Assembly: GCA_028713205.1 (NCBI GenBank)
Contig: JAQTOZ010000007.1
Location: 1 to 34,195, forward strand
Source: Candidatus Omnitrophota bacterium
GTDB taxonomy: Bacteria; Omnitrophota; Omnitrophia; Omnitrophales; Aquincolibacteriaceae
Direction: 5' to 3'
Length of the DNA stretch: 34,195 bases
Below the pieces are notes generated by a model that searched no databases, was not told where the DNA came from, and was given only the letters and a program-made list of their open reading frames with translations. Every line of letters begins with the position of its first letter. Within the stretch, counting starts at the first letter, position 1. Both the position numbers and the translations under genes were made by a program. Of the stretch, positions 1-16,625 are shown in pieces.

Positions 1-3000
1 GGTTGATTAAAAACAGCGGGAAATACGGATCCTCGAGAAGTCCCGGCAGCGTGTTCTTTTTCAGAATCGCCAAGATCTTGGCAATCCGTTTGCGCACACC
101 GAACGCGGGCGGCTTGGGTTTGGGCCAGTCACGCCACTGAAGCGCCTTCAGCATCCCGACCATTCCCCCGCCCTGTTGATCCAAAAACCCTTGGACACGG
201 AACCAATTCTCAAAGAGGCACCAGGACCATTCGTCCAGCTTCTCGCGCGGGAAAACACGCGCCCAAAATCCGCCGTAATCGGACAAAAATAAAATCAATC
301 CTTCGATCAGAGCCAGGTCATCCGGATTCGTCGTCTCGGAACCATAACGCAGCATCGACTCGATCGCATCGCGTGCCGCCGTCCAGCCGTCATCGGCAGA
401 CGCTTCCGCCGCAGTCGTTTCGGCAGTATCCGACAGACGCGCCGCACATGCGAAACCCTGCACGGCGCTCACAACATACATTGTCATCCAAGTGTCAAAA
501 TATCCATGGTCCATCATGATCTCAAGGGACTGTTGAAACCAACTCAGACCTTCACCCACACGCTGCATGGCCATCAGAGCGGCGGCATAGGCCATTTGCG
601 ACGCCACGGCATCCCTGGAATCATAGGTTCTCTCCCTGTGCCGGATCCACTCGACGGTCGTCCGAATCTCCGCCAAAGCCCATAAGGCATTATCCCTCTC
701 CCCATGCTCCAGCCACGCCGTCAAAAGCGGCACCAAGGCTTGCGCGCGCACTGCGGGCCTTCTCAGGGAATCGACGATCGTCTCGGCAATCTCGAAGTCC
801 CCCCTCCGTGCCAGTCGATCGACCTCCTCGACCACGCCCCTCTCGTTGGAATAACCTCGCTCTTTTTGCATACGCCGACGAAATTCTTCCGGCGTCCAAA
901 TCGCAGCGCCGGCCGCCCAGCGATATCCGACATAACTCCCGCCGGCATTCCAATTCAAAAGATCTCCGAGCCGGTAGAATCGTTCGGATTCGGCCGGATT
1001 TCCCAGGGCATGCCAAATTTCGGCAAGGCGATAAGCCTGGGGAGCCTCATGCGTGGGACTCTGTTCCGATAAATGAGCACCGACCCGTCGTGCAATGCGT
1101 TCCGCTTCGGCCGCATTTCCCATCGCCAGGTAAGACTGCGCCAAAGCCAAATCACCGAGGCCAGCCCCTTCCGGTCTGCTGCGCTTTTCCAAAACAGACG
1201 CCAAACGCAATCCGACCGGATCCATGTTTCTGGCGTGATAAGCCTCCGCCATATAATGCAATGCCTCCGGAGACGATTCGTGCACACCGAGACGCATCAG
1301 CAAACTTTCCGCCGCGGACAAAGCCGAATAAACATTGGCTTCCGGCGACATAGGCGCGACATTCGCAGCTGACGCCGCGACAGCTGGCATACCCGCTTCC
1401 GCAGTAACCTGTTCCGGATAATGAATAAGGAATTCTGCATCGAACCCGAAAATCCGTGCCAGATAGGGATCGTCCTCGTGATAATCCTGAAACCATTGAT
1501 TCAAGATCATTCGCCACAGGACTTCGTCCGGCGTCCCTGGTGCATATGCCCGCGCAACGGGCATGACACGCTCACGCAACGCAGCGGCGTTGTCCGGATG
1601 GCCCGTGCGTTCCTCCAACAATGCCATTTGCGCATATTGCCCGGCGTTGTGAAAGAAGATCTCCCCTGAGCCTTCCGAAAATATCCTCCGCACCAGCCGG
1701 TGCATCCGGCTGGCATGACCGCGGTCATTCAGTGTCAGATAAATTCCTCCCGCAAGGGCACCCAGTTGCATGAGATAAATGTCCTCATAATTTCCCTGTT
1801 CTTCCCGAATCTTTCGATCAAAGGATTCCATGGCTTGCCGCGCGGCACTAAAATCACCCCGGCGGATGGCCTGAAAAGCCATCAGCAGCGAAAGCCGTGG
1901 GGCCATGCCGTAAATGACGACCGACGGATTTAATTCCGGGAATTCCCGCCGGGACAATCCCGCGTCCAGCAAAAGGATCCAGCAGAGTATCCGGTTATTC
2001 AGCTGAGGCTCATTTTCTTTCGGCTGATTGTCGCGGATTTGTGCCAAACAGTGCAAATGGCGCAGCGTTTCCCGCACAATGTTCTCGTTCTTGTTATTCA
2101 AAGCCGCAACTCCGACGGCCACACCCAGCCGCGCTGCCTCGGCGGCGCTTTTTTCATTCGTCACCGGCAGACTTTGCATCTCTTCGAAAGCCCGTCTGAT
2201 TTCAAGCGCCGCTTGTTCGCGATTGTTTTCACGCGCAAGCTGGTCCGCATAGGCCAGGCTTTGCAGAATCTCTCCGCCTTTTTCCGGGAAAAATTTGAGT
2301 TCCCCATTCCTGATTTCCGACCTCCCCTTCGCGGTGGGAGGAAAGGTCTTATCAACGACGCGGGAAAACCCATAAATATTTATTTTCTCATGCCATGCCT
2401 GTAATTTCTCGTGATCTGAACTTGCTGCTCCCAAGTGGACGATACCTGCCAATAATTGATGAATGTCGGACCCTTCAACAAGCGAATTTGGGCAATGAGC
2501 TTCCGCATACCGAACCATTTGAAACAGCAATGAAGCCCAATCCTCCGATCTGGACGATCCGGGAATACACATCAACTCGCTGATTAAACGGATACCATTC
2601 GAAACCAGCCTGCGTTCGTACTCCTGAGGCGCAAAACGCCCTGTGATGTCATAATATTCTCCGCGATTCAGAAGATTCATCACTTCCTGAAAACAGATCC
2701 GCACGAATTCCTCAAGCTCAGCCGGACGCAATATTTCCAGTTCCTCGTAGCGCTCCCGGGACACCAGGGAGTGCGAGTCGGCCAAAAATTCCTGGACCAT
2801 TTCGCGGATTTGAGCCGGATCCGCATTCTCCGGAACAACGAAAGATCGCGATCCAACAATCCCCAAATCAACCAAGGCATTCAATATACCGGTCAAATCC
2901 AAACCGTCATAGAGACCTCTCTGAATCAGGTAATCCTCCATTTCACGTTCGTAAGTTTGCGGATCGACTCGGCGTCCGCGCCGAAAAATCAGTTGCTCGC

Positions 3001-6000
3001 TTCGCCCACTCAAGATCGGAGTTGCTATCGGAGTCTCAAGCGGTTCAGCGCTGACGTCGATTTCCCAAAAACTAGGCCGAATCGCCAAAACATGAACTTG
3101 CATACCGTTCACGACGACCTTTCCGATGCCTTCAAGCCTTGGAACCGGTGTCGTGTAAAGGATCGAACCCTGCTGAGGCAGGCCCAAATCGACCGGGCTC
3201 AAATAATGCCTGCCTTCGGCATCGGGCCGATCCGTACGAATGATCCGTCTCAATTTAAAAAACAGATTCCGCACATCGCCGATTTTCACTGGAATAAACT
3301 CTTCAGTCCGCGCCAGTTTATGTTCGTCTTCAGGATCCGCGGTTTCCCGCTCAATCACCAGTTCATTGCCGTTCTGAAAACGGATCGCAACTTCCGTAAC
3401 ACCTCTTTCCTGGAATAACGGGTCAAATATTTTAGTCATCACAAAGCGGCTAAAATCGTTCACCCGAACTTCCGACCGCGTCGTCGAAGCAGGATCTGCT
3501 TTGCGCATCTCCGAACGAACGGCCGTGTTACGCTGTTCCGGAGGAAGGCGTTCGATGTTCGCACGCAGCACACGCTCAGCTCCCTCGGAGACCATGAACT
3601 TTGCCACATCGCGGCAAATGCGTACGTCTCCATAGGAGGTTGGCCCACCGTACTCATCGGTACTGTCCTGATACCAGGCGGACGGTGAAGTGCTGATGTG
3701 AACCGTGGAAGGAACGATGCCGTCTTCTTTGAATAACCGGTCAAGAAAGCGGATGATCGACTGCGCATCTGCGACATCGGAACAGATATTGATCACGATC
3801 CGTTGATTTCGCGGCCGGTCTTTCCAGTCAAAGTATTTGTCAAATCCGGTGTGGACGTATTCACTGACATGTGACTTGACCATCCCGATACCTTCGTCAT
3901 TTTCATCTCCATGGTCGATCACGTTCCGGCTGGTCCGGCTGACGTGGATATGTCTGCCGATGCGTTTCTTTTGCGCTAACGTAATCGCGATATAACCCGG
4001 TCCATACCCATGCTTCAAATCCGGAATGTACGCATCGGTATGGGCGTCAATGAATAGTTGGTCGTTCACCTTCTGAGTTTCGCCTCTCTCCGTAGAGTCG
4101 TCCAAATAGGAATCGGATTTGTCATGTGCATCGAACACATAGATACCGAAGCCGAGATTTGTCTCGATACGGACATCCTGGGTCATCGTTGAATCTTCCG
4201 AGATCGAATCGTGATCGCGAGCCCTCTCGATGTCGTCGGGCGTCCCGACGATGAGACTTGAATATTTCACATGCCGCCAGCGGCCGATGGCCTCATCCCA
4301 TGTAAAATTCCGTGCATCAACCGGCGGTTCATCCCGGCTGCCCCTTCTCACCTCGGAGCGCGCTTCTTGGAGATGTAATATCATGTTTTGATTTGTACGC
4401 GAAAAATCAACAGTCGCACCCCAAAATGCGGCCTGACACATCAAGCGTTCGGCATCGACAATGACACTCAGCACATCGCGCGGTGCATTTAGCACACCGA
4501 ATCCCATCGATCGCAATCGTGTCGCCGTGAAGTTGATTGCCATATGATAACCGGCAGCGACCAACAACGATGAGGTCATAGCGATAAGGGTATGGTCCCA
4601 GGAATGTCTTAACCCTATCCCCGGAGTCGTCCGATCCCCTTCCGACATTATCGCGCTGTGGCCATCGGCAAAAAGGCGATTGGAAAATCCCAAGGCCGAT
4701 TCGTCGGTTCCATCATCGTAATGCCCCAACGGCATACCTTGCACCGAAACCATATAGCGAGGAATCAAATACCGGAACAGCATTTCTTCGATCATCGGTG
4801 CGATAAACACTTGATCGAGAATCATCGGCGCGTTCAACTGAACGAAAGTCAGCAGTTGATCTTCACTTCCGAAAGAGCCGTCCATGAAACGGCTTAACAC
4901 GTTATTCGAAACCTCCAGACGCGCCGATGCGACGGCAAGACAGATCATTTGAACAAAGAAGCGGTCATGCACCGGCGACTTCAACATTTTTGTCAAATGA
5001 CCAAAAACGTACTCACCGATTACCATCGCGTCCGGAAGGAGGCCGACAAACCTATCCGGCACATGCAAACGATCGAGGACTTGCGGCATACGGGATATCC
5101 CTTCGTAAAAGGAGCGGACGGCCCGGCTTTTCAGAAATTGATTGGCGGATGCCAAATCCCCTTCGGGGAAACTTGGCACAGCCGACAATTCAAGCCGGAG
5201 AGGGGCATACGCATGATCTTTCTCGGAGACAACGCTTTGATTGTAAATATCGAATTGTGCCGAAAGCATTTCCTCAAGCTCACCCGAAAGTCTCGGTAAA
5301 ATCATCGGTTTATTGTCCCATCTCGTTTCCGAGCGGGACGGTGTTTGGCTGCGTATCGGCTCGCGCAACTTTGCGGCAACTCGTTCGACGACTCCGGCAT
5401 CCGTACGCTGAAACAGCATGGTCCAGTATTTTTCGATCGCGTCCTTCCACTTTCGCAGGATTTCAATGGGCGGGAGTGTTTGAATATCACGAAGGACTTC
5501 GGCGTGCATCGTTTCGGTCCCCAGCAGATACATGACTTTCACCAGTTCATAGGTGAAATGTTTTTGGAATGTACGATTGACAAAATGTTTCTGCAATTCG
5601 GGATCGCTCAAATCGCTGACAAGATCCCGGAGATGCGTCAGCAAACCTTGGACATCCGTACGATAAAGATCCCCCAGGATGATTCGTGCCATATCCTGCC
5701 AATCTCCCCACGGAGTCACATGCAAACGAACTTGCATCGGCGCAAGCGCACCTTCGACACGAAAGTCGTACAACGCGCAAACCATACCGCTCCGGATCAA
5801 ACGGTCGGCACGAATGTTCAAGTCCGGATAACAGGCCTGAAGGGCTTTGCGCAATTCGGCGGTGAAAAAAGGGACTGCATTGGAGGTTACCCGCCGCTGA
5901 GCGATACTGTCCCTGAGACGGAGTTCCTGCGGATAATGGATGACAAAATCAATGTCCCAATCATCGTGATCATATCCCGGGAAATAACGCATAGAACCGG

Positions 6001-9000
6001 CAATCCTGGCCTCGATGACCATTCCCGGAATACCGATCCGCGCGGCCGTCCTTTGCGCAGCCTCCTCCGCCAGCAACTGCAGAAAGCCGACGTCCTTAAG
6101 CGCCTCGTGAATCGATGCCGGAATTCGGCTTGCGATACCGGCCGCCGGCGGAGCGAGTTTTTCGTCCGCAACATACTTCAAAGCAAAATCCAGATCGCCG
6201 TATTTCCCGCCCGGCTGTTTGCTCCCGTATGGCACACGGTAATTGTAATCAAAGATTTCTTTGCGGAGTTCCGCAGCCCGTTCCTCGCCCATGGATGGTG
6301 CGAAGAGCACATTAAATAAATACTCGTTAAGCGCGGAGGCATTTGCTCCGATCAAGTCCAAAACTTCGCTCGATAAGCCGATGGCGGCCGGATATTTTTC
6401 CGCAATCAGTTCTTGGAACTCAAACTCCGGGACAGTCACGGCAGCAACCGGTGCGGCAGGCACGGTATTGAACCACAGCAAATCGCCTTGCGACTTCGTG
6501 CGCTCAGCCGGATCCGGGATCACCACGGCATCAAATTCAACGATCGGTTTTTTGAGACTTTCGTCAATCCAGCCGCAAAGTTCCCGTTGTTGGGAATTTG
6601 TCAGGCCGGGAATTCTTAATGCGGCATGTTTAAGATCACTGCGCAACTCATCGAGATCGATACTGTTTCTTAAAGGTCTTACATTTTGCGCGAGCAACGC
6701 TTGCTCCAGTTCGCGTTGGGTTTCAGGAGAGGCATCTTGACGCATCTCGGATCGATCTAAGGATTCTTCGAAAGGCCGCGCGGTGATCGATAGCTCGTAT
6801 TCATCATGTTCTTTTGATCCCTGCCGGACATGCGTCCTGTTCAAATCAAGACGATAGGTAAAAGCCAAACCGCTAAAATGCGGTTTGCGCTCCAATTGCG
6901 TAACGAAATATTGTCCGATCCGCCGGAGGATAAGAGATGTTTCGGTCTTAGAACGCTCCGACTGCGGAAAATAATTCAACTGAATGACGCTCGGTACATT
7001 GAGTGCCACCATCATGAGAGGCTCACGCACCAAAGCAAGTTCATTGATCGTTTCAATCAGTTCAAACCAGCCACATTCGATAGTTTCAACCAATTCTTTG
7101 GGGCCTTCCTCCCGAATGGGATAAACCGGAGTCTGCGGTGAAAACCACTGTTGCACGGACGAAACAGCGTCTGCGATCCAATCGCGCAGGCGCTTAAATA
7201 ACCGCGTCTCGGACCTCATTTCAGTAGGCACTAGGCGGGAGGCAGTGGGCAATACATTCCTATCGCTTTGACTGCTTACTGTGGACTGCTTACTGCCGAC
7301 TGATTTCAGGCGCGCCTCGGAACGCCAACGCGCAAAGGATTCTTGTATTTGTTGATTCATCCGCTCCATATCCCTCATCCATTCCCAACCTTCCCGCGGA
7401 AGGACCTCGGTGTGGAGTGTATGAATCAGCCGTATCGTCTTCTCTGCGGATTCAAGCCACTTTCGAAGACGCGCAGGCAACGCTTCGACCTCGTCCGCAT
7501 TGAGCTCACCGCGCAACATCAGATCAGCAATAAAACTGTTGCTCACCACCATGCGCTGTAAAAGGCACATATGCTTGAGTGGATTCACCCACGGTGGGAC
7601 TTCCTCACCGGTCCAATGACTCTGAAACTCTGCCACCGCCAGACGACGCGGGTCACCTTGATCGCGGATCGCTTCGGCCTTGGTAAAAAATTCCGCTGCA
7701 ATCTCCACCGGAGAGTGCGTTTCAACATAGTCGTTCGTGAATGCCAACGAATAGCGGCCTTTCAGCACATCTTGATATTGATTGAACAAGGGACTCGACG
7801 TGAGCAGCGCCATCGCACGACGCAATTTCTGTTTGGACTTTTCGTCGTAGGCCTTCTCAAGCGGCGTCGCAAATCCAAAGGGCCATCCGGATTGAACGTA
7901 CACATACAGATTTCTTAACTTCGTCATATCCTGCACGAGCCCATTCAAAAGCCGGTGGAGCCAAACAAGCTTGGGTAAACCGAAAATCATATCGGCATCG
8001 GATGTCATCCCTTCAAATAGAGCCCCCAACTCATCGGCGCTCTCTGAGCGAATGACATACGCCAAAGTTTTTACGTCATATTCATTCATCAGCGGCAGAA
8101 TCACCCGCGTCACATAGTCGCGGAAATCCTCATAACGGTCAAACCGACCTAAATAATCTTCGTCAGTAATCTTTTTCGAATACTGATACAATCGGAGTCC
8201 CGTTTGATTGATTGTTTCGATCAATTGAGCGGCTCTCGTCCGCATCGAATCGTCTTCGATTTCGGACAATTCCGCGCGTTTTGCATCACAGGCGTCCCGG
8301 AGCATCAGAAGCACGTCCTCCGGATTGGAATCCGACCGCATCTCGGACCGGTTCGGAGCATCGGGCAAATGTCCTGCTTCATAAGTTGCATATTTCCCGT
8401 CAAATTTGGTGTAGGCTTGCCCGATCAACCGGACCGCACGCACCGAAGCCCAAAACCGCCGGTCTCTTTCTTCCTTGGAAACGTAATGCAGATCATGGAG
8501 CTGATCATAGATCTTGAGGACGATATTTGCCTGCCCCGCTTCGGTCTCGGAAAAGCGTTTTTCCCATCCCCGGCCTTCGCGCGGAACATATCGAATAAGA
8601 TTGGAACCGTCCGGAAATTTAAAATAGATTTCAAGATCGCCTTTCGTACCGCGGAGCCGGCAATAGCGGTCATTGCTCGGCATGCCGTCGCCCACTTCAA
8701 GATCCACAGGAACACCTTTGAGTTCCGTGCGGATATGCGCATACGTTTCAGCACCCGGTACCGCATCGGTCCGCCGCGCCAAAACAATATCCTTCGCATT
8801 GAGCGATAAGTCTTCAAAACTGAGTCCGAATGGGGCAAGCATCATTTCCAAAGGTGCGATAATATGCACCATCGTGTCCATGGCCTGACCGCCACCGCTG
8901 ATTTCGGAATCGACAATCCAAGCCGCATTCGACTTCTCTTCATAGAGCCGTCCCTCGACTCCGGCCAAATCACCGAGGAGTTCCGGCAAGCGCTCGTTCA

Positions 9001-12000
9001 TATTCAAAGCCTCCATCATCGCGCCCCGCTCGATCACATGATCAATCGAAAAAATCAGATCGGGATATCGCTCGTAAAGCGCAATCAGTTCATCGATCTG
9101 ATCCGGCGTGACCAAAGGTTTTTCCACGAATGCCGCAATACCTCTCTCGACAGCCCAGCGAATATAATCCAAATGCGTATTGGGCCACGTTGCGATCAAG
9201 ATAGCGTCCGGTTTGATTTCACCGCGTTCCACGGCTTGTTTGAATAATTCGAAACCCTGGTAATAATCCTCCACGCGCATAGGGAGTTGTTGCTCGCCGA
9301 TGATTTGATCGGCATCCTCGGGACTCTTCAAATCAATCCCGACCACTTTCGTGCGGTAGGTCGGACTCCATTGAGCGAGAATCGGCATATACCGGTCGCG
9401 GGATACTTTTCCGAGAGCTCCGGCAACGGCCAATGTTTTTTCTTGCAGCGAATGCGTGCCGACATGTTCTTCCGGCGCGGGAATCTTCGCGAGGACTTCG
9501 CCATGCCGCATTTCGCTTCGAACTTGTTGCACCTCGCTGAGGTGATAGGGTTCTGCCAGAGAAAGGAGGTTATTGCGCCAATCGACATGCCCTTCGGGGG
9601 CGATCACGGCCGGATCGCCTGCGAGTAATCGAAAAGCATTGAACAGAGTACCGTGACCGAACAAAATCACTTTTTGGCCGGGAGATTGCCGGTTCAGATA
9701 TTGCAGAAAATCATATGCACGGCCCAATACTTCTACAAAACTCTCGCCTTCGGGCTGCTTGGCTTTGACCAAAGCATTCAGGGCACGGAAACTTTTCGTA
9801 TTCTCGACTTCTTCCGGACCGAATCGGTCCGCAATCTCGTCCTCGGTCAGGTTCTCCCATGCGCCAAAGCCGATTTCCTCAAGGGCCGGGACCGTATTCC
9901 AAGTCAGATTTCCGGGCAGCGGTGTCGGGATGCGATCACGAAAAGGCTGTGCCGTTTGAAGCACCCGGGTCAATGGACTGCAAAAGACCGCGATTTTCTC
10001 ACCGCCCAAAATCGCGGCTAAAAATTGATCCCATAGCTTTTGGGCCGCCGCCCGGGCCTGTTCCCATCCCAACGAAGAAAGGTCATTGATCGTGTCTCCG
10101 CGTTTGCTGCCTTGAAAGCGGCGCTTTTGGTCCTCGTTAACCTGTTGAATGAGGTTTGTTTGTCCGTGGCGCACCAGCCATAGATCGCTGGCAAACCGCA
10201 TCGGGACAAAACTCTCTAAACGATAAATGCGGCCGGTTTCCGGATCATACCGAAGCTTCAACCGGTTTAAGATCTGCTCCTCGCGTACATTGGGATGCCA
10301 GACACGCATTTCGGAACGGTTGGCGGGTTCCGGACCCGCCTCGTGCGCAGGAGGCGGCACAGGCTTGCCGATCATCAGACTGTAGGCGGTATAATAATCT
10401 TGCCGGATCGTTTTTTGAGTTGCTTTCCAAAGCTTCCGGATTTTCACCGGGTTAAACAATTCGTTAAGCGTGGATGCCCGGACCTCAACCTGCAGCCAGT
10501 TGCCGTAATCCTCCAACAATTTATCGAGGTCCATGGCCTGCATTTCTTGAACAACCGTTTCAAAATACTCCAAATCATAGCCTTCCGCGCTGAACCATAG
10601 TGGATCACGGGCGCCATAGTATCGCCACATCTGCTCCATAAATTTTTTCCAATACGGGATACGGAACCCACTGATATCATTCGCACGTCGATCAGTCGGT
10701 TCGAGCGTGCCATCCATGTCAATTCTCAAGAGCGCCTCTGCCCCATCGCCGATTTTGACCGGCACCAAATTGGTATACTTGCTGTCCGCCTGCCGGAGCC
10801 AAACATCCAGCGCAAGAATCAGGGTGCGAACTTTTTTCATATCCTTCAAAGCCGGCGGCATCCGTTCGGGATGATCCCGATAGGTCCATTCATCGACAAT
10901 CGACAATACCGAGAAATAGGGCCTGAACCCGCTGGTATTGGGTCTCTGTTTGAATTCCTGATGAAGCTGCGGAGCTTCACCGAATGCCGGAATGAATACT
11001 TCGACCGCAACACCGAAATGCCGCATAATCAGAGAGGCCATGATTTCCTTATAATAGATGTTCACATTTTCATAGACGCCGCGAGCCTCTTCGGAGCGGG
11101 AACCTTTTGCGAGAAGCAACCTTCGATTTTTATCCCTGCCGATATAGAAAATATACTCATCGATTTGTTCGGGCCGTATGTCGTGTTGGAGGATCTCCCA
11201 ATATTTTGTTTCCCGCTCGATATAGCCCTGGCCAAAGACATACCGCAACACTTCAATCCATTGCGGATCCGTAATTTTGTGATACCGGATTTTCGGATCG
11301 CCCGGCCAATCCGCGACATATCGATTGGACCGCCTGCGCAGCCAATCTTTCGCCCAATCCGTCATCTCCCCTTCCACATAGACCACCGCGTCTTCGAGAT
11401 GGTCCTGATGGGCATCTGCCTTGACGTCCATTTTCCAGCGAGAAAGCGCATGATTCGTATCATCAATCGGTTTCTGAAGTTCCTTTTGTCGATTCATACT
11501 CAGTGTCGAATGGGCGCGTAATTGCCGCCTGAGAAAGTGCGCGCGGCCGTTGCGGAAACGGCGCAAACTCTTCAGATAGTCCAGCCTTTCTTCATCCGTT
11601 GCGAACGAAACCGCGGGGCTTTCCCAAATCATCTCCACGACCGGATCTTTGATATCAGGAAAATCGTGATTATGCGTGCCGTCAAAGCTATAATGACTTT
11701 CCACAACACGGGATTGAATTAATGACATGTACGGTTTAGCTTTATGGCGTAGGAAATAAATCGCCTGCGAGTCATAAACATCGAGCGGGAACCCTTGGTC
11801 CAAGTGCCTTTGCACGATCTCAACCTTATTGGCGGCATCTCCGGTATAAGCCCTGAATTGACTGATGGCAGGATTCTTAAACGGGCTCTCCATAACAGAT
11901 TTCCATTGGGCCGGCTCAGGCACGGGCTCCGCTCTCAATTCAGGCTTGAGCTCCCAAACTTCAAATTCTTCGGATGCCAAACCGAAATTCAAAGGTTCCG

Positions 12001-15000
12001 GCCGCCGTTTCGCTATATCCTGTTCCAAAATCACTTTGGCCTCCGTTTCGAGATCAATTTGCGTTTCGGGTACCGGACGTACAACGTGCACTTCCCGTTT
12101 CACCATCAAACGGTTCCAAATCTCGTCGCGATCAGGCTGTGAAATACTCCGAAGCATCAGAGCTGCCAAAGCTGCATCGATACCCGCATGCTTGCGAGCC
12201 TCTTCGAATGTGCGACCGGCCGCATCCTCTCCGGACTGAAAATCATCCGTTTGAATTCTCGCACGAAGCGCCCGGAATAGGTCCTCCACGGGATACTCCT
12301 GTTGGATTTGCTGCCGCGATAGCCAGGTTTCTACATCATGAATATTTTGCAATCCGTTGATTTTAGCTAAATCGATCACACTGCGCGTCTCAGACCGCGA
12401 TTCAGGAGGCACTAGGCCAGAGGCAGGAGGCAGCATCATTCTATCACGTTGACTGGTGTCGTCTGCCGGCTGCTTACTACCGACCGATTCTCGTCTTGTT
12501 TCTGAGCGAACCGATCGGCTGAGATGCAGAACCGCAAAGTCTTTACGCCAATCCGCGAGTCCCTGAATCAGAAAATCAGCGCCGGCCGCAACCAATCTGC
12601 GCCCGGCGGGGTGTTCCGGATCGGTCGATACGTTCACCGTACTTCCGACCGCGATAACATTCAATTCACGGTCTTTGGTAGATTCCATACCCTTGATGCC
12701 GTCATCAATAAGCATAATCTCATCATCTTTCACAATCAGATTCAAATGGGCCCGTTTCAAATTCCGCATGATCCATATCGAAGGAGCAGATACACGTTGA
12801 AATTGCGCCAGCCACTCAAAAATTATGAAACAGGGTAAAACGACAAGTCTCCAAACAAAAAGGTTCCATATTTCTTGAAAGATTTTGGCCGCTAGCAACC
12901 ACCGATTCTCTTTGAGCTTTTGCCTCTCGAGATCCCGTTTGATCTTGCGCAGCATATCGGACTTTCCTCTTGGGTACGGATTCGTTTCCGCTTCCGTTCC
13001 GTAGACGCCTTTGAAATATTCCCGCATCCCCCATTGTTTAATGATGTTCTCCACAAGTCCCCGTGGCGATCCAGTCCCGATATGCAGTTCAAAACCATGT
13101 TTCGCCAGAAAAGCAATGGCATCCCGCACGCCTTCAAGAGGCCTCGGATAATTCTTCCGGATTCCTTCAATGGCAAGCGCTTCTTCGATATAGACCGCCG
13201 CTGCGACAAACCGGTCGATCGAATTTAGATCCTTATTTTCCAAAGCGCCGCTCACTTTATCTTCGATCTTATATTTCCTGGCGAGTTCTTCGAAAACAAA
13301 CCTCAATCGCGGTAGAGTCTCTTTCCCATTTTGTCTGATCGAAGCCCGAATCATCATCCGAAACTGATGGGACGCAAGTATGCCCATGGTCCTGCTGAGA
13401 AAAGCAACGCCTTCTGCCATATCCGCCACGGTCGGTTCCTCCGGTGATAACCTCATGATCCAGTGATGGATCATGCCAAAAACTTCTTCCCAAATCGCGC
13501 CGGTATCGCCAAGCACTTTGTCAAAATCAAAAAGGATGACCTTGGTATCCGGTTTCCGGTCTGTTACAGCCTGAGCGCTACGACTCATCACCTCAAGGGC
13601 ACGCCCCGCGTCACGCCATTCGTAATAATACTGGGGATGATGCTCCGAGCTGCGGGCCTCACGGGTCGCGTCATAAACACTTTCCGCAATATTTTCATCT
13701 ATCACCAACGGACGGCCGAATACAACCACCCGAGAAAGCTGTCCTTGCTGCTTCTGCCGCATCCTTACCTGTTCGATCAAAAACTGATGTTCGCTGAAAT
13801 TTGTCACGTGACCTCGAATCAAAGAACCTGCTCCGCTCCTTGTCTCTGACCGCAATTCAGTTGGCATCAGGCGGGAGGCAGGAGGTAGTATATTTCTACC
13901 GTTTTGACTGCCGTCTAATTCTCGTCTCGTTTCGGCCCGGTTCGACACAAAGATTCCGTTTTCGAAGCGAAAGCGCCCACGTGGCCCCACATTGATTTCG
14001 GATCTCTTCGCCATAGCCAAGGATGCCAGGGTGGCCATCGTTGCCGGTTTGAGAAGGCTCATAATGTTTTGCGTGTTAAGTTGCTTTGTTTTCTCCAGCC
14101 GGGTCAGACCGCGCATAAATGCGTTGATTCGCTCAAGGCGTTTGCCGACCCCCGATTCACCCCGGCCGCGGTCCGTAAGCTCATCGATCAAGGCTGTGTA
14201 CCGGCCCGCGTTTTCGATCTGTCCCTGTCCGGCTAAATCGCGAATGATTTGGTCACGCCACAGCTTCAGCATATGGCTATGATCAAAATACATTTGTGAA
14301 TTTGGACTTTCACGAGATCCTTTGTGATCCATGCCGGCCGCTAATAATTTGTCCCCTACCGAACGCACGAAGGCTTTGCTGACATTGATTTTTCCGTTTT
14401 CAATTTTGAAGTATTCGGCCCACGATAGCCTGCCTTGCATTTGTGCGCGGTACGACGAATCCTCCGGAATTGAGTTGATCTCCGGCATCACGAGGACATA
14501 AGAAATTTGGTTCTCTTTAAATCTTCGCACCAGACCTTCGGTATGAAAACCTCCCGCCACCAGGATGGTTGCATTGACTGATTTTGTTTTAAACAGAGTG
14601 CTCAAATTCTTGAAAAAGGCGCTGTCACGTTTCCCGGTGTTTTCATAGAAAACAATGTGGGCGTTCAACTCGGGACTCAAGATTAAAGAGTCTGGATCAA
14701 GTACTCCTCCCTCGCTCCGGTCTTCGGCTTGAAGTTTTGGATCCCGGTCCCGGAGCGTTTGCAGGTCTCCCCATTCTTCGCGAGTCAGTTCAAGCTTGAT
14801 CAATCTTTCCAGGAGGTCCAATTGATGGGATTTTTTATCGATCTGCCTTTCGGAATCGTTACGAAAAACAGAATCCTTGACCGAATCCGCATATGCCCGC
14901 AATTCCCGGAAAAGTTTTGTCCCGACAATATCGCGCAGGGTTTTCTGTTTTTGTGTCAGCTGATTCCATAACGGCGTTGTGGTAACGGAGATCTGATACT

Positions 15001-16030
15001 TGGATGCGATTTCGCGGAGGATAAGCGCAAACGCCTGCGGTGACAGGGCCGAGGTCCGATAGGCCTGATAACGTTCATGAAATATTTTCAAATCAGCCCC
15101 GCAGGACGGTAAGGAGGCATGAAGATCCAAATAGGATTCAACACAGGCCGCAACGTCCTTGATTTCCGTCTTAAAACCCGGCGGGATGCGGCTTTGGTTC
15201 CGGCTTTCCGCCAGCAATAGGGCGATGGACGAATTGTTCGCAGGACTTTTGAATTTCGCCAAACCCCGCAAATAATCCAGTAGATTCATCTCGTTTTGCC
15301 GGAAAGCATGATCGGCCCAGTCGAGTTTGAGGAGTTTCTTGGAATAAACAGCTTCCTTTTCGGACCGGAGCTTTTTTTTCAGTGCCGTGAGTTTTTGGTC
15401 AAGAGCGGCTTCCCCTTCGAGCGCCCGCAAATAGGACGCCCAGCCTTCCTCATACAAATTCAAGTCTTCGATGCCGTAGCATTCGAGCCGGTTTGAGGCG
15501 GCGCTGTCTTGATGTCCGTAACCCGGTTCGCTGGCCGGCTGGACCGCCGCAAAGATCGCCGCTGCCGTGGTGCCCGTCAACTCTCCCCGGTCAAAATAGC
15601 CGTCGAGCGTCTTTCGGAGGAGGCCCTGGTCCGGGAAACTTCTGAAGATTTGAGCATCGAGGCTCGAGGAGGCACCTTCCAAGGCGACCCGGTTGATCCC
15701 ATACCGGTTTTGGATATATTCGATCAGCCGTTCAATATTCCTTTGCGCATCCGGAAGGGCATGCGCGTCTTGAATCAAGACCACAACAGGCTTCCCATCC
15801 GGCGCCTGATATTGATCTTCGATTTTCCCCAGTTCTTCCGGAACTTTCATATCCGAAACATCGATTTTGATGTGCCGGCTCTCGATCCCATGGGGCGTCG
15901 TCACAACCGGAGCACCGAAACCGGGAGTGCACACAAAAGCGGACAAAGTCAGGACGGCAACGCAGCGCAACGCGACTTGCCGGATGCACGGTCCGAATCG
16001 ATATCGCAGGGTTTGAGGGTTAGCCCACAT
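1..16030 (-). CDS. Giant multidomain protein, partial (C-terminus beyond left edge), >=5,343 codons, signal-peptide-like N-terminus MWANPQTLRYRFGPCIRQVALRCVAVLTLSAFVCTPGFGAPVV
   Basis: ATG at 16030 (minus). Frame (codon first base = 1 mod 3) read directly without stops at 1-540, 7202-7327, 12362-12530, 13802-13950 and most of 15100-16030. No ORF in this frame is listed by the track, as expected if it never terminates inside the window. All listed minus ORFs from 690 to 15989 are in the other two frames. Confidence 0.93.
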   Translation of the reverse strand, partial: MWANPQTLRYRFGPCIRQVALRCVAVLTLSAFVCTPGFGAPVVTTPHGIESRHIKIDVSDMKVPEELGKIEDQYQAPDGKPVVVLIQDAHALPDAQRNIERLIEYIQNRYGINRVALEGASSSLDAQIFRSFPDQGLLRKTLDGYFDRGELTGTTAAAIFAAVQPASEPGYGHQDSAASNRLECYGIEDLNLYEEGWASYLRALEGEAALDQKLTALKKKLRSEKEAVYSKKLLKLDWADHAFRQNEMNLLDYLRGLAKFKSPANNSSIALLLAESRNQSRIPPGFKTEIKDVAACVESYLDLHASLPSCGADLKIFHERYQAYRTSALSPQAFALILREIASKYQISVTTTPLWNQLTQKQKTLRDIVGTKLFRELRAYADSVKDSVFRNDSERQIDKKSHQLDLLERLIKLELTREEWGDLQTLRDRDPKLQAEDRSEGGVLDPDSLILSPELNAHIVFYENTGKRDSAFFKNLSTLFKTKSVNATILVAGGFHTEGLVRRFKENQISYVLVMPEINSIPEDSSYRAQMQGRLSWAEYFKIENGKINVSKAFVRSVGDKLLAAGMDHKGSRESPNSQMYFDHSHMLKLWRDQIIRDLAGQGQIENAGRYTALIDELTDRGRGESGVGKRLERINAFMRGLTRLEKTKQLNTQNIMSLLKPATMATLASLAMAKRSEINVGPRGRFRFENGIFVSNRAETRRELDGSQNGRNILPPASRLMPTELRSETRSGAGSLIRGHVTNFSEHQFLIEQVRMRQKQQGQLSRVVVFGRPLVIDENIAESVYDATREARSSEHHPQYYYEWRDAGRALEVMSRSAQAVTDRKPDTKVILFDFDKVLGDTGAIWEEVFGMIHHWIMRLSPEEPTVADMAEGVAFLSRTMGILASHQFRMMIRASIRQNGKETLPRLRFVFEELARKYKIEDKVSGALENKDLNSIDRFVAAAVYIEEALAIEGIRKNYPRPLEGVRDAIAFLAKHGFELHIGTGSPRGLVENIIKQWGMREYFKGVYGTEAETNPYPRGKSDMLRKIKRDLERQKLKENRWLLAAKIFQEIWNLFVWRLVVLPCFIIFEWLAQFQRVSAPSIWIMRNLKRAHLNLIVKDDEIMLIDDGIKGMESTKDRELNVIAVGSTVNVSTDPEHPAGRRLVAAGADFLIQGLADWRKDFAVLHLSRSVRSETRRESVGSKQPADDTSQRDRMMLPPASGLVPPESRSETRSVIDLAKINGLQNIHDVETWLSRQQIQQEYPVEDLFRALRARIQTDDFQSGEDAAGRTFEEARKHAGIDAALAALMLRSISQPDRDEIWNRLMVKREVHVVRPVPETQIDLETEAKVILEQDIAKRRPEPLNFGLASEEFEVWELKPELRAEPVPEPAQWKSVMESPFKNPAISQFRAYTGDAANKVEIVQRHLDQGFPLDVYDSQAIYFLRHKAKPYMSLIQSRVVESHYSFDGTHNHDFPDIKDPVVEMIWESPAVSFATDEERLDYLKSLRRFRNGRAHFLRRQLRAHSTLSMNRQKELQKPIDDTNHALSRWKMDVKADAHQDHLEDAVVYVEGEMTDWAKDWLRRRSNRYVADWPGDPKIRYHKITDPQWIEVLRYVFGQGYIERETKYWEILQHDIRPEQIDEYIFYIGRDKNRRLLLAKGSRSEEARGVYENVNIYYKEIMASLIMRHFGVAVEVFIPAFGEAPQLHQEFKQRPNTSGFRPYFSVLSIVDEWTYRDHPERMPPALKDMKKVRTLILALDVWLRQADSKYTNLVPVKIGDGAEALLRIDMDGTLEPTDRRANDISGFRIPYWKKFMEQMWRYYGARDPLWFSAEGYDLEYFETVVQEMQAMDLDKLLEDYGNWLQVEVRASTLNELFNPVKIRKLWKATQKTIRQDYYTAYSLMIGKPVPPPAHEAGPEPANRSEMRVWHPNVREEQILNRLKLRYDPETGRIYRLESFVPMRFASDLWLVRHGQTNLIQQVNEDQKRRFQGSKRGDTINDLSSLGWEQARAAAQKLWDQFLAAILGGEKIAVFCSPLTRVLQTAQPFRDRIPTPLPGNLTWNTVPALEEIGFGAWENLTEDEIADRFGPEEVENTKSFRALNALVKAKQPEGESFVEVLGRAYDFLQYLNRQSPGQKVILFGHGTLFNAFRLLAGDPAVIAPEGHVDWRNNLLSLAEPYHLSEVQQVRSEMRHGEVLAKIPAPEEHVGTHSLQEKTLAVAGALGKVSRDRYMPILAQWSPTYRTKVVGIDLKSPEDADQIIGEQQLPMRVEDYYQGFELFKQAVERGEIKPDAILIATWPNTHLDYIRWAVERGIAAFVEKPLVTPDQIDELIALYERYPDLIFSIDHVIERGAMMEALNMNERLPELLGDLAGVEGRLYEEKSNAAWIVDSEISGGGQAMDTMVHIIAPLEMMLAPFGLSFEDLSLNAKDIVLARRTDAVPGAETYAHIRTELKGVPVDLEVGDGMPSNDRYCRLRGTKGDLEIYFKFPDGSNLIRYVPREGRGWEKRFSETEAGQANIVLKIYDQLHDLHYVSKEERDRRFWASVRAVRLIGQAYTKFDGKYATYEAGHLPDAPNRSEMRSDSNPEDVLLMLRDACDAKRAELSEIEDDSMRTRAAQLIETINQTGLRLYQYSKKITDEDYLGRFDRYEDFRDYVTRVILPLMNEYDVKTLAYVIRSESADELGALFEGMTSDADMIFGLPKLVWLHRLLNGLVQDMTKLRNLYVYVQSGWPFGFATPLEKAYDEKSKQKLRRAMALLTSSPLFNQYQDVLKGRYSLAFTNDYVETHSPVEIAAEFFTKAEAIRDQGDPRRLAVAEFQSHWTGEEVPPWVNPLKHMCLLQRMVVSNSFIADLMLRGELNADEVEALPARLRKWLESAEKTIRLIHTLHTEVLPREGWEWMRDMERMNQQIQESFARWRSEARLKSVGSKQSTVSSQSDRNVLPTASRLVPTEMRSETRLFKRLRDWIADAVSSVQQWFSPQTPVYPIREEGPKELVETIECGWFELIETINELALVREPLMMVALNVPSVIQLNYFPQSERSKTETSLILRRIGQYFVTQLERKPHFSGLAFTYRLDLNRTHVRQGSKEHDEYELSITARPFEESLDRSEMRQDASPETQRELEQALLAQNVRPLRNSIDLDELRSDLKHAALRIPGLTNSQQRELCGWIDESLKKPIVEFDAVVIPDPAERTKSQGDLLWFNTVPAAPVAAVTVPEFEFQELIAEKYPAAIGLSSEVLDLIGANASALNEYLFNVLFAPSMGEERAAELRKEIFDYNYRVPYGSKQPGGKYGDLDFALKYVADEKLAPPAAGIASRIPASIHEALKDVGFLQLLAEEAAQRTAARIGIPGMVIEARIAGSMRYFPGYDHDDWDIDFVIHYPQELRLRDSIAQRRVTSNAVPFFTAELRKALQACYPDLNIRADRLIRSGMVCALYDFRVEGALAPMQVRLHVTPWGDWQDMARIILGDLYRTDVQGLLTHLRDLVSDLSDPELQKHFVNRTFQKHFTYELVKVMYLLGTETMHAEVLRDIQTLPPIEILRKWKDAIEKYWTMLFQRTDAGVVERVAAKLREPIRSQTPSRSETRWDNKPMILPRLSGELEEMLSAQFDIYNQSVVSEKDHAYAPLRLELSAVPSFPEGDLASANQFLKSRAVRSFYEGISRMPQVLDRLHVPDRFVGLLPDAMVIGEYVFGHLTKMLKSPVHDRFFVQMICLAVASARLEVSNNVLSRFMDGSFGSEDQLLTFVQLNAPMILDQVFIAPMIEEMLFRYLIPRYMVSVQGMPLGHYDDGTDESALGFSNRLFADGHSAIMSEGDRTTPGIGLRHSWDHTLIAMTSSLLVAAGYHMAINFTATRLRSMGFGVLNAPRDVLSVIVDAERLMCQAAFWGATVDFSRTNQNMILHLQEARSEVRRGSRDEPPVDARNFTWDEAIGRWRHVKYSSLIVGTPDDIERARDHDSISEDSTMTQDVRIETNLGFGIYVFDAHDKSDSYLDDSTERGETQKVNDQLFIDAHTDAYIPDLKHGYGPGYIAITLAQKKRIGRHIHVSRTSRNVIDHGDENDEGIGMVKSHVSEYVHTGFDKYFDWKDRPRNQRIVINICSDVADAQSIIRFLDRLFKEDGIVPSTVHISTSPSAWYQDSTDEYGGPTSYGDVRICRDVAKFMVSEGAERVLRANIERLPPEQRNTAVRSEMRKADPASTTRSEVRVNDFSRFVMTKIFDPLFQERGVTEVAIRFQNGNELVIERETADPEDEHKLARTEEFIPVKIGDVRNLFFKLRRIIRTDRPDAEGRHYLSPVDLGLPQQGSILYTTPVPRLEGIGKVVVNGMQVHVLAIRPSFWEIDVSAEPLETPIATPILSGRSEQLIFRRGRRVDPQTYEREMEDYLIQRGLYDGLDLTGILNALVDLGIVGSRSFVVPENADPAQIREMVQEFLADSHSLVSRERYEELEILRPAELEEFVRICFQEVMNLLNRGEYYDITGRFAPQEYERRLVSNGIRLISELMCIPGSSRSEDWASLLFQMVRYAEAHCPNSLVEGSDIHQLLAGIVHLGAASSDHEKLQAWHEKINIYGFSRVVDKTFPPTAKGRSEIRNGELKFFPEKGGEILQSLAYADQLARENNREQAALEIRRAFEEMQSLPVTNEKSAAEAARLGVAVGVAALNNKNENIVRETLRHLHCLAQIRDNQPKENEPQLNNRILCWILLLDAGLSRREFPELNPSVVIYGMAPRLSLLMAFQAIRRGDFSAARQAMESFDRKIREEQGNYEDIYLMQLGALAGGIYLTLNDRGHASRMHRLVRRIFSEGSGEIFFHNAGQYAQMALLEERTGHPDNAAALRERVMPVARAYAPGTPDEVLWRMILNQWFQDYHEDDPYLARIFGFDAEFLIHYPEQVTAEAGMPAVAASAANVAPMSPEANVYSALSAAESLLMRLGVHESSPEALHYMAEAYHARNMDPVGLRLASVLEKRSRPEGAGLGDLALAQSYLAMGNAAEAERIARRVGAHLSEQSPTHEAPQAYRLAEIWHALGNPAESERFYRLGDLLNWNAGGSYVGYRWAAGAAIWTPEEFRRRMQKERGYSNERGVVEEVDRLARRGDFEIAETIVDSLRRPAVRAQALVPLLTAWLEHGERDNALWALAEIRTTVEWIRHRERTYDSRDAVASQMAYAAALMAMQRVGEGLSWFQQSLEIMMDHGYFDTWMTMYVVSAVQGFACAARLSDTAETTAAEASADDGWTAARDAIESMLRYGSETTNPDDLALIEGLILFLSDYGGFWARVFPREKLDEWSWCLFENWFRVQGFLDQQGGGMVGMLKALQWRDWPKPKPPAFGVRKRIAKILAILKKNTLPGLLEDPYFPLFLIN
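2..2308 (-). other. Giant-protein module: helical TPR-like repeat region, continuing past left edge
   Basis: Repeated helix pairs such as LALAQSYLAMGNAAEAERIARR and YRLAEIWHALGNPAESERFYRLG. Confidence 0.5.
3520..4335 (-). other. Giant-protein module: UPF0489/arginase-deacetylase-like domain
   Basis: In-frame NLGFGIYVFDAHDKSDSYLDD followed by VNDQLFIDAHTDAYIP (DxHxD). Confidence 0.45.
4365..5315 (-). other. Giant-protein module: CPBP (CAAX/Abi-type) intramembrane metalloprotease-like domain
   Basis: In-frame LDQVFIAPMIEEMLFRYLIPRYMV (EExxxR) and RHSWDHTLIAMTSSLLVAAGYHMAIN (HxxxN-like). Confidence 0.4.
5345..6735 (-). other. Giant-protein module: nucleotidyltransferase-like domain
   Basis: In-frame EARIAGSMRYFPGYDHDDWDIDFV resembles the minimal NTase GS...D[DE]xD motif. 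Confidence 0.4.
7202..7324 (-). repeat. In-frame dispersed repeat element copy A (RSEARLKSVGSKQSTVSSQSDRNVLPTASRLVPTEMRSETR)
   Basis: Nucleotide similarity to copies at 12383 and 13838; bounded on both sides by RSExR motifs; verified codon by codon in the giant frame. Confidence 0.85.
8380..9470 (-). other. Giant-protein module: Gfo/Idh/MocA-type oxidoreductase domain
   Basis: In-frame QAVERGEIKPDAILIATWPNTHLDYIRWAVERGIAAFVEKPL, the hallmark (AT.N..H.....A...G..V..EKPL) of the family; Rossmann-like N-terminus TLAVAGALGKVSRDRYMPIL. Confidence 0.85.
9620..10215 (-). other. Giant-protein module: histidine phosphatase (phosphoglycerate mutase-like) domain
   Basis: DLWLVRHGQTNLIQQ (RHG catalytic motif), VFCSPLTRVLQTAQPF (SPLxRxxQTA), ILFGHGTLFNAF (GHG). 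Confidence 0.85.
12383..12508 (-). repeat. In-frame dispersed repeat element copy B (RSETRRESVGSKQPADDTSQRDRMMLPPASGLVPPESRSETR)
   Basis: Same architecture and nucleotide similarity as copies A and C. Confidence 0.85.
12620..13545 (-). other. Giant-protein module 2: HAD-like hydrolase domain
   Basis: TKVILFDFDKVLGDT (motif I DxD), ELHIGTGSPRGLVENIIKQWGMREYFKGVYG (motif II-like) and IMLIDDGIKGMESTKD (motif IV-like DD). Confidence 0.65.
13838..13939 (-). repeat. In-frame dispersed repeat element copy C (RAETRRELDGSQNGRNILPPASRLMPTELRSETR), shorter version
   Basis: Same architecture; lacks the central ~8-residue stretch of copies A and B. Confidence 0.85.
14010..15940 (-). other. Giant-protein module 1: TraB/ChaN/EreA-like domain (KPVVVLIQDAHALPDAQRNIERLIEYIQNRYGINRVALEGASS ... 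NATILVAGGFHTEGLVRR)
   Basis: In-frame translation; an early beta-strand with DAH, then VALEGA, then a late 'LVAGGFHTEGL' similar to the closing motif of TraB-type folds. No profile search possible. Confidence 0.45.
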
Positions 16031-16625
16031 AGTCATGGAGCATCCCCCTGATGCGTTGCGTGATATTGCGAAATTTAATACCGATACCCGTGTGATGGTT
16101 TTTCACCTGGTGGACAACACGGCCTTCAATTTCTATCAGGTCTTGTTGTTGATTCGGGATTTCAAAAATGACTTTGACCTGGTCCCCCACAACAAAAGCC
16201 TGCTCTTCTTCAAGCCACAAACCAAAAATATTTTGATCACCCGTCCCCTGCTCCGTAATGCGGTTAAAAGTATGAACAGGCACAAACAAGGCACCTTCTT
16301 CGCTCAGATTACGGATTTCTCCGCCTTGATGGATGACCTTGGCATCGCCCATCATTCCCGTGACATTGGCCGCTATCGTGGTATTGATTCTGGGAAAATT
16401 TCTCTTGTCTGCCGCAACCGCGGGATGATTGATAAAATCCTGATTTCCGTGAAGATAACTGAGGATGTCCGCTTCAAGGAAGCGCCAGTGTTTTCCGAAT
16501 TTCACGCCGCGCAATTTTCCTTTGGCGGCAAGATCGTAAATGGTCGAGAGAGGGATCTTGAGATAATCGCTAACTTCCTGTGCGGTTAGAATTTTCTGCC
16601 TGGATGCCCCCGCTTGATCGTCCAT
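16020..16625 (-). CDS. Excisionase/MerR-type HTH fused to PilZ domain; putative c-di-GMP-responsive DNA-binding regulator
   Basis: ORF track; HTH LTAQEVSDYLKIPLSTIYDLAAKGKLRGVKFGKHWRFLEADILSYL; PilZ motifs RNFPR (RxxxR) and RNLSEEG (NxSxxG). SD-like AGGA 5' of ATG. Confidence 0.88.
   Translation of the reverse strand: MDDQAGASRQKILTAQEVSDYLKIPLSTIYDLAAKGKLRGVKFGKHWRFLEADILSYLHGNQDFINHPAVAADKRNFPRINTTIAANVTGMMGDAKVIHQGGEIRNLSEEGALFVPVHTFNRITEQGTGDQNIFGLWLEEEQAFVVGDQVKVIFEIPNQQQDLIEIEGRVVHQVKNHHTGIGIKFRNITQRIRGMLHDYVG

Follow-up and report, generated by a model that had tools for sequence, protein, structure and literature searches.

In the 34,195-nucleotide (nt) stretch of Candidatus Omnitrophota DNA analysed here (the window), positions 2-16036 of the minus strand form a single giant open reading frame (ORF) of 5345 amino acids (aa), which is open at the contig end. 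An earlier reading of the bare letters, referred to below as the sequence-only reading, had drawn attention to three copies of a repeat (A, B and C) inside this gene. The larger finding is a pentapeptide, R[SA]E[AVMTLI]R (the PENTAPEPTIDE), which recurs as punctuation along the giant ORFs of several families within a single Omnitrophota order. We consider it somewhat probable (about 55%) that each giant is a chain of once-separate proteins in which R[SA]ExR serves as the site of cutting or of some other recognition, and that the repeats inserted in it are dispensable.

The pentapeptide in giant reading frames

In 39 giant ORFs (196,872 aa), R[SA]ExR was present in 482 copies. The form RSE[AVMTLI]R was observed 346 times against 2.2 expected, while RSE[AVMTLI]K and RSD[AVMTLI]R occurred once each. 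In the genome of the window, the comparison of ORFs covered 401 kb in 31 contigs and gave 168 motifs in 17 giant ORFs versus none in the 159 remaining ORFs that reach 150 aa (62,386 aa). The giant ORF of the window contains 15 motifs (0.46 expected); apart from those that bound copies A, B and C, the majority stand without a neighbouring repeat. ORFs selected only by the N-terminal module described below likewise carried 36 motifs against 2.0 expected, usually with one just behind the module, near residue 650-780. The motifs of the window outside the three repeat copies, all found by motif scan, were as follows:

10304-10318, minus strand: RSEMR, single, ahead of the histidine phosphatase module
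9506-9520, minus strand: RSEMR, single, between the phosphatase and Gfo/Idh modules
8336-8350, minus strand: RSEMR, single
6740-6754, minus strand: RSEMR, single
5321-5335, minus strand: RSETR, single
4346-4360, minus strand: RSEVR, single
3464-3517, minus strand: pair of RSEMR (3503-3517) and RSEVR (3464-3478), separated by 13 residues in which no repeat was recognised
2309-2323, minus strand: RSEIR, single

No R[SA]ExR was found in 17 giants that share this N-terminal module but belong to lineages outside the order (approximately 64,000 aa), nor in the sampled giants of two families of the order (f2 and f7); the families that carry the motif are f1, f3, f6 and f8. On account of these absences R[SA]ExR is, as far as the sampled sequences go, a lineage-specific trait. 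A literature search with strings such as RSEVR and RSEMR, which did not cover preprints, found no paper using the motif in such a sense. It must be noted that other words were enriched in three giants with few or no R[SA]ExR, namely F.HNP.EA (8 times, L163 of genome G219), R.QGT (9 times, L173 of G028) and V.EPV (10 times, L162 of G245), which might be other punctuation or plain repeats.

The codons of the motif carry information about its origin. Every Ser codon and each of the six Arg codons is used in it, and the synonymous and third positions have diverged, which places the constraint at the protein level and rules out R[SA]ExR as a purely DNA-level repeat. Additionally, the Ser of the motif is encoded by AGY in only 15 of 388 cases (4%), compared with 33% in the same genes (p 8e-46). 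Independent origins by point mutation would have given the background share and are therefore disfavoured; a share so far below it indicates that the motifs descend from TCN copies which spread as DNA. At the level of sequence, then, the motif is shown to have spread as DNA copies and to be kept at the protein level. The possibility that RSEMR is an internal translation start was dropped, because Thr or Ala frequently occupies the fourth position.

Modules, export signals and a proposed chain of proteins

The spacing of the motifs was bimodal, with 93 gaps of at most 70 aa, only 16 of 71-120 aa where 43 were expected, and a median of 283 aa, which is the pattern that modules with linkers would give. 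The linkers of the giants are rich in P, S, T, Q and G. None of the Pfam matches in four giants was crossed by R[SA]ExR; they include HAD, histidine phosphatase, Gfo/Idh, GNAT, DUF218, helix-turn-helix, beta-propeller, response regulator and nucleoside diphosphate kinase domains, as well as both halves of one alanine dehydrogenase. Given the modest number of matches, this test is supportive rather than strong. In the window, the giant ORF and its modules are:

2-16036, minus strand: giant ORF, 5345 aa in the window (open frame; overlap with contig C20)
14000-16036, minus strand: N-terminal module, aa 1-679 (conserved across genomes; confident structure model)
12932-13543, minus strand: HAD hydrolase module (Pfam PF00702, E 5e-8)
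9632-10183, minus strand: histidine phosphatase module (Pfam PF00300, E 6e-26)
9062-9430, minus strand: Gfo/Idh/MocA oxidoreductase module (Pfam PF01408, E 4e-9)

Internal segments resembling twin-arginine translocation (Tat) signals, with RRx[FLM] and a hydrophobic core, were also placed with respect to the motif: 9 of 11 start within 20 aa after it, a zone that holds 5.1% of the positions (p 1e-10). Examples are RSEMR-RRDFLGMMLKTSAAVVAAAVVPGLTGC, with a lipobox, in contig C103, RSEMR-AGRSAGEMNRRGFLRTVSGAVVGAMAAAG in contig C173 and RSEAR-MDRRDFIQ in genome G012, and TatC is encoded in the genome of the window. Tat signals work at the N-terminus, so that a cut at the motif would provide each Tat-bearing module with an N-terminal signal.

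These features suggest, without amounting to proof, that the giant protein is cleaved at the motif in the manner of a polyprotein. The giant would consist of formerly independent proteins placed end to end, with R[SA]E[AVMTLI]R in the short linkers between them, the motif would be the place where the chain is cut or otherwise recognised, and the product would act as a bacterial polyprotein. Several points weigh against this proposal. The hydrophobic segment at the N-terminus would direct the chain to Sec export, which is odd beside Tat signals in its interior. Within the clade, certain giants are motif-poor (for example G005_C21, with 3 motifs in 7721 aa), those of other families and classes do without R[SA]ExR, and the set of giants was partly picked by motif count. 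In this sequence-based analysis no protease was found and no cleavage, transcript or peptide was seen; metacaspase C14, considered as the protease, is present in just 4 of 48 genomes and was excluded as a general candidate.

It is unlikely that the pentapeptide is instead a docking or anchoring motif, bound by a partner in the linkers of a giant that stays one molecule, as a scaffold or surface coat, and merely tolerates inserts where it is flexible. Hundreds of occurrences of a short motif in linkers of this composition (P, S, T, Q and G) are indeed what one would expect of a binding motif, and the giant ORFs of V. archaeovorus are thought to form a coat (PMC10066038). However, docking leaves unexplained both the Tat-type signals that follow the motif, one of them with a lipobox, and the tendency of the inserts to lie between two motifs.

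The spread of the motif as DNA, as read from its codons, also agrees with a fusion scar, that is, genes or modules joined by recombination at linkers encoding RSExR, with a motif that has no present function and inserts that are remains of intergenic DNA. The inserts are of intergenic type, and the modules behind the motifs sometimes begin as complete genes do, with Met followed by a Tat signal. A scar also accounts for the internal Tat signals, which is a further point against cleavage. Nevertheless, the residues are fixed (346 RSE[AVMTLI]R against a single copy with Lys in the last place) despite the synonymous divergence, which requires selection on the protein, and homologous junctions in different genera retain the motif. 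We judge the scar to be quite unlikely.

If the chain is cut, its N-terminal module offers a lead, not a result, in the search for a candidate processing enzyme. This module starts many giant ORFs across the phylum and was found in 47 of the 48 genomes of the order and in 133 of 292 genomes of the phylum, with up to 29 matches per genome; related named records belong to Candidatus Omnitrophota, plus a few Elusimicrobia. Residues D90, H92, E120, E190 and R470 and the GG.H at 495-498 are invariant in 53 sequences, and the structure model is confident (predicted local distance difference test, pLDDT, 86.7). A protease identity was tried for the module; the fold search returned as top match the erythromycin esterase EreC, a weak one (E 0.08), and neither a Pfam name or agreement nor a PDB sequence match was obtained.

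The giant gene very likely runs on beyond the window. Its left end (2-42) overlaps the right end of another contig from this assembly, C20 (L009), by 41 nt with 1 mismatch, and C20 is an open frame throughout; because of this overlap the gene is probably at least approximately 9,740 aa long. At the other end, a gene with helix-turn-helix (PF12728) and PilZ (PF07238) domains (16020-16625, minus strand) shares 17 nt with the beginning of the giant ORF, a hint that the expression of the two is coupled.

Repeats inserted between two pentapeptides

Copies A, B and C are each bounded at both ends, in frame, by R[SA]ExR:

13838-13939, minus strand: copy C whole, motif to motif
13925-13939, minus strand: RAETR, left of copy C (motif scan)
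13853-13924, minus strand: copy C insert, CAGTAAG/ACTGCC type (nucleotide similarity)
13838-13852, minus strand: RSETR, right of copy C (motif scan)
12383-12508, minus strand: copy B whole, motif to motif
12494-12508, minus strand: RSETR, left of copy B (motif scan)
12398-12493, minus strand: copy B insert (nucleotide similarity)
12383-12397, minus strand: RSETR, right of copy B (motif scan)
7202-7324, minus strand: copy A whole, motif to motif
7310-7324, minus strand: RSEAR, left of copy A (motif scan)
7217-7309, minus strand: copy A insert (nucleotide similarity)
7202-7216, minus strand: RSETR, right of copy A (motif scan)

The sequence-only reading had reported three related in-frame copies in one coding gene, and this was confirmed, on the minus strand. 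With A as query against the 3.1 Mb genome, B was recovered with an E-value of 1e-12 (76% identity) and C with 2e-11 (80% over 70 nt), a nucleotide similarity far beyond chance. The shared peptide pattern holds in general, except that copy C is shorter than A and B and lacks their left part, with the SVGSKQ portion. The flanking motifs were also described correctly, at both ends of each copy, although with 15 motifs in the ORF they are not confined to the inserts.

Two further in-frame copies were found in the giant ORFs of contigs C20 and C106, which brings the total to five, every one of them inside a motif-bearing giant ORF. A covariance model built from these five was used to find copies in spacer DNA; it revealed a full copy in contig C39 (2060-2144, E 1.6e-5, on both strands) and an intergenic one in C252 (896-1006, E 0.003). 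A partial match was also found in C100. The intergenic copies lie at sites without the R[SA]ExR motif. Since the family has both in-frame and intergenic members, A, B and C are, by this sequence evidence, dispersed elements sitting in coding linkers, as had been proposed; the genome search that had been suggested did yield both kinds of copy, few in number at this sensitivity. An Rfam search with the repeat gave no match. In a comparison of folding with shuffled DNA, z was -1.2 for A, 0.45 for B and -0.5 for C, -2.3 for the intergenic copy in C39 and -5 for two other repeat families of the linkers. As A, B and C fold no better than shuffled DNA, their palindrome appears to have decayed, which fits older insertions.

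The junction behind the N-terminal module, where copy C lies, was compared in 45 homologues. Within the stretch compared, exactly one motif was found in 25, two or more in 4 (the window included) and none in 16; several of these have near-variants such as KSEVR or HSELR. The junctions with one motif would represent the empty site for copy C. An ortholog of the copy A region was sought for the same comparison and none was found.

Judging from their sequences, at least four unrelated repeat families of this genome, the A/B/C type included, occur at such linker sites. A GTTTC-type palindrome is in frame in the motif-bearing giants of contigs C20 (twice), C188 and C205 (once each), and occurs at about 10 further places without a spanning 120-aa ORF, some of which are one place seen on both strands. 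For an ATTCGG-type palindrome, 8 further copies are in frame in giants, the majority of them between two motifs; the similarity of these cassettes includes the motif at either end and weakens beyond. Tandem copies were found of a GTGACGC...GCGTCAC type (peptide RRDATASRLDGTSSGRAE). In genome G039, from another family, a PKTGTGS...EPVPVL-type repeat adjoins motifs in giants, and a TGGATTCCCGC-type repeat lies in spacers at some places and is translated in linkers at others. The insert DNA of 57 motif pairs showed more structure than the remaining ORF sequence (mean z -1.3, with 10 below -3). Apart from the giants, contig C74 of this genome (L192:1480-1620) has a palindromic intergenic-type repeat in a 715-aa open frame without R[SA]ExR, a possible in-frame insertion elsewhere.

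The sequence-only reading had proposed an element analogous to the Rickettsia palindromic elements (RPE), with a possible target duplication of the RSExR codons; in this model a mobile element would target these codons and duplicate them on insertion. The motif on both sides of nearly all ATTCGG- and CAGT-type inserts and the empty homologous site for copy C speak for such targeting. However, the DNA of the left and right motifs of a pair is identical at 10.56 of 15 bases, and that of random pairs from the same genome at 10.37; paired motifs are thus no more alike than random ones, and target-site duplication was rejected. RSExR is moreover a clade-wide protein signal, mostly insert-free, and intergenic copies lie at motif-free sites. 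Finally, four or more unrelated repeat families have this site preference in common, so that it belongs to the linker and not to one element, and we regard targeting of this kind as very improbable. It is hardly credible that A, B and C are simply repeats within the protein and not DNA elements, as their common frame and similar length might suggest, when the same DNA lies in spacers without a giant ORF (C39, C252) and other linkers contain unrelated repeats.

If R[SA]ExR is where the chain is cut or recognised, a peptide flanked by two motifs would lie outside every module and be dispensable or trimmed away, and the repeats would persist there because that peptide is dispensable. The second motif of a pair would come from linker DNA copied with the repeat and not from target duplication. 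This offers a reason why repeats of intergenic type entered coding sequence repeatedly, the stretch between two motifs being expendable. In its full form the proposal is that part of one Omnitrophota order makes chromosomal polyproteins, in which a protease acting at R[SA]E[AVMTLI]R frees whole enzymes, some of them exported by Tat, and the inserted palindromic repeats are removed at the protein level; we put this forward tentatively, as possible rather than probable. If true, the chain would tolerate selfish DNA much as introns or inteins allow, by means of proteolysis. A concrete motif with hundreds of copies, a phylogenetic limit and negative controls makes the proposal directly testable in metaproteomes.

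Comparison with known systems

RPE are short dispersed repeats (approximately 70-150 bp) of several unrelated families, found both between genes and in frame in coding sequence (Ogata et al., 2000; reviewed in PMC10969869). The repeats described here are of like size, are likewise intergenic and in frame and belong to several unrelated families. In contrast to the Rickettsia copies, which enter unrelated metabolic genes, no insertion in unrelated ordinary genes was seen for the in-frame copies, all of which are in linkers of giant ORFs beside the pentapeptide, and some of the repeats are built of degenerate heptamers. The likeness of the A/B/C family to RPE is a loose one. Several inserts, such as the TGGATTCCCGC type of G039, are of the kind of the repetitive extragenic palindromic (REP) sequences, with the difference that part of the copies here is read as protein linkers.

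Giant Omnitrophota ORFs of at least 20 kb with few annotated domains have been described (PMC10066038), in the same phylum and of the same frame size as the giant studied here. No punctuation motif, processing or repeat inserts were described for them in the literature searched, whereas the giants reported here, from some families of a single order, can be divided into modules that have a motif in common. In addition, a survey of huge proteins regarded cleavage into smaller functional proteins as possible and unknown protease motifs as an obstacle (PMC11573180).

With viral and other polyproteins the giants share unrelated enzymes, as complete or near-complete Pfam domains, in one chain, and a short recurrent conserved site in flexible linkers between the units (346 RSE-type motifs against 2.2 expected, bimodally spaced), and they may work in a like manner. 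Unlike those polyproteins, they are chromosomal, bacterial and encoded by many genes per genome; we compare them with that class and claim no membership in it.

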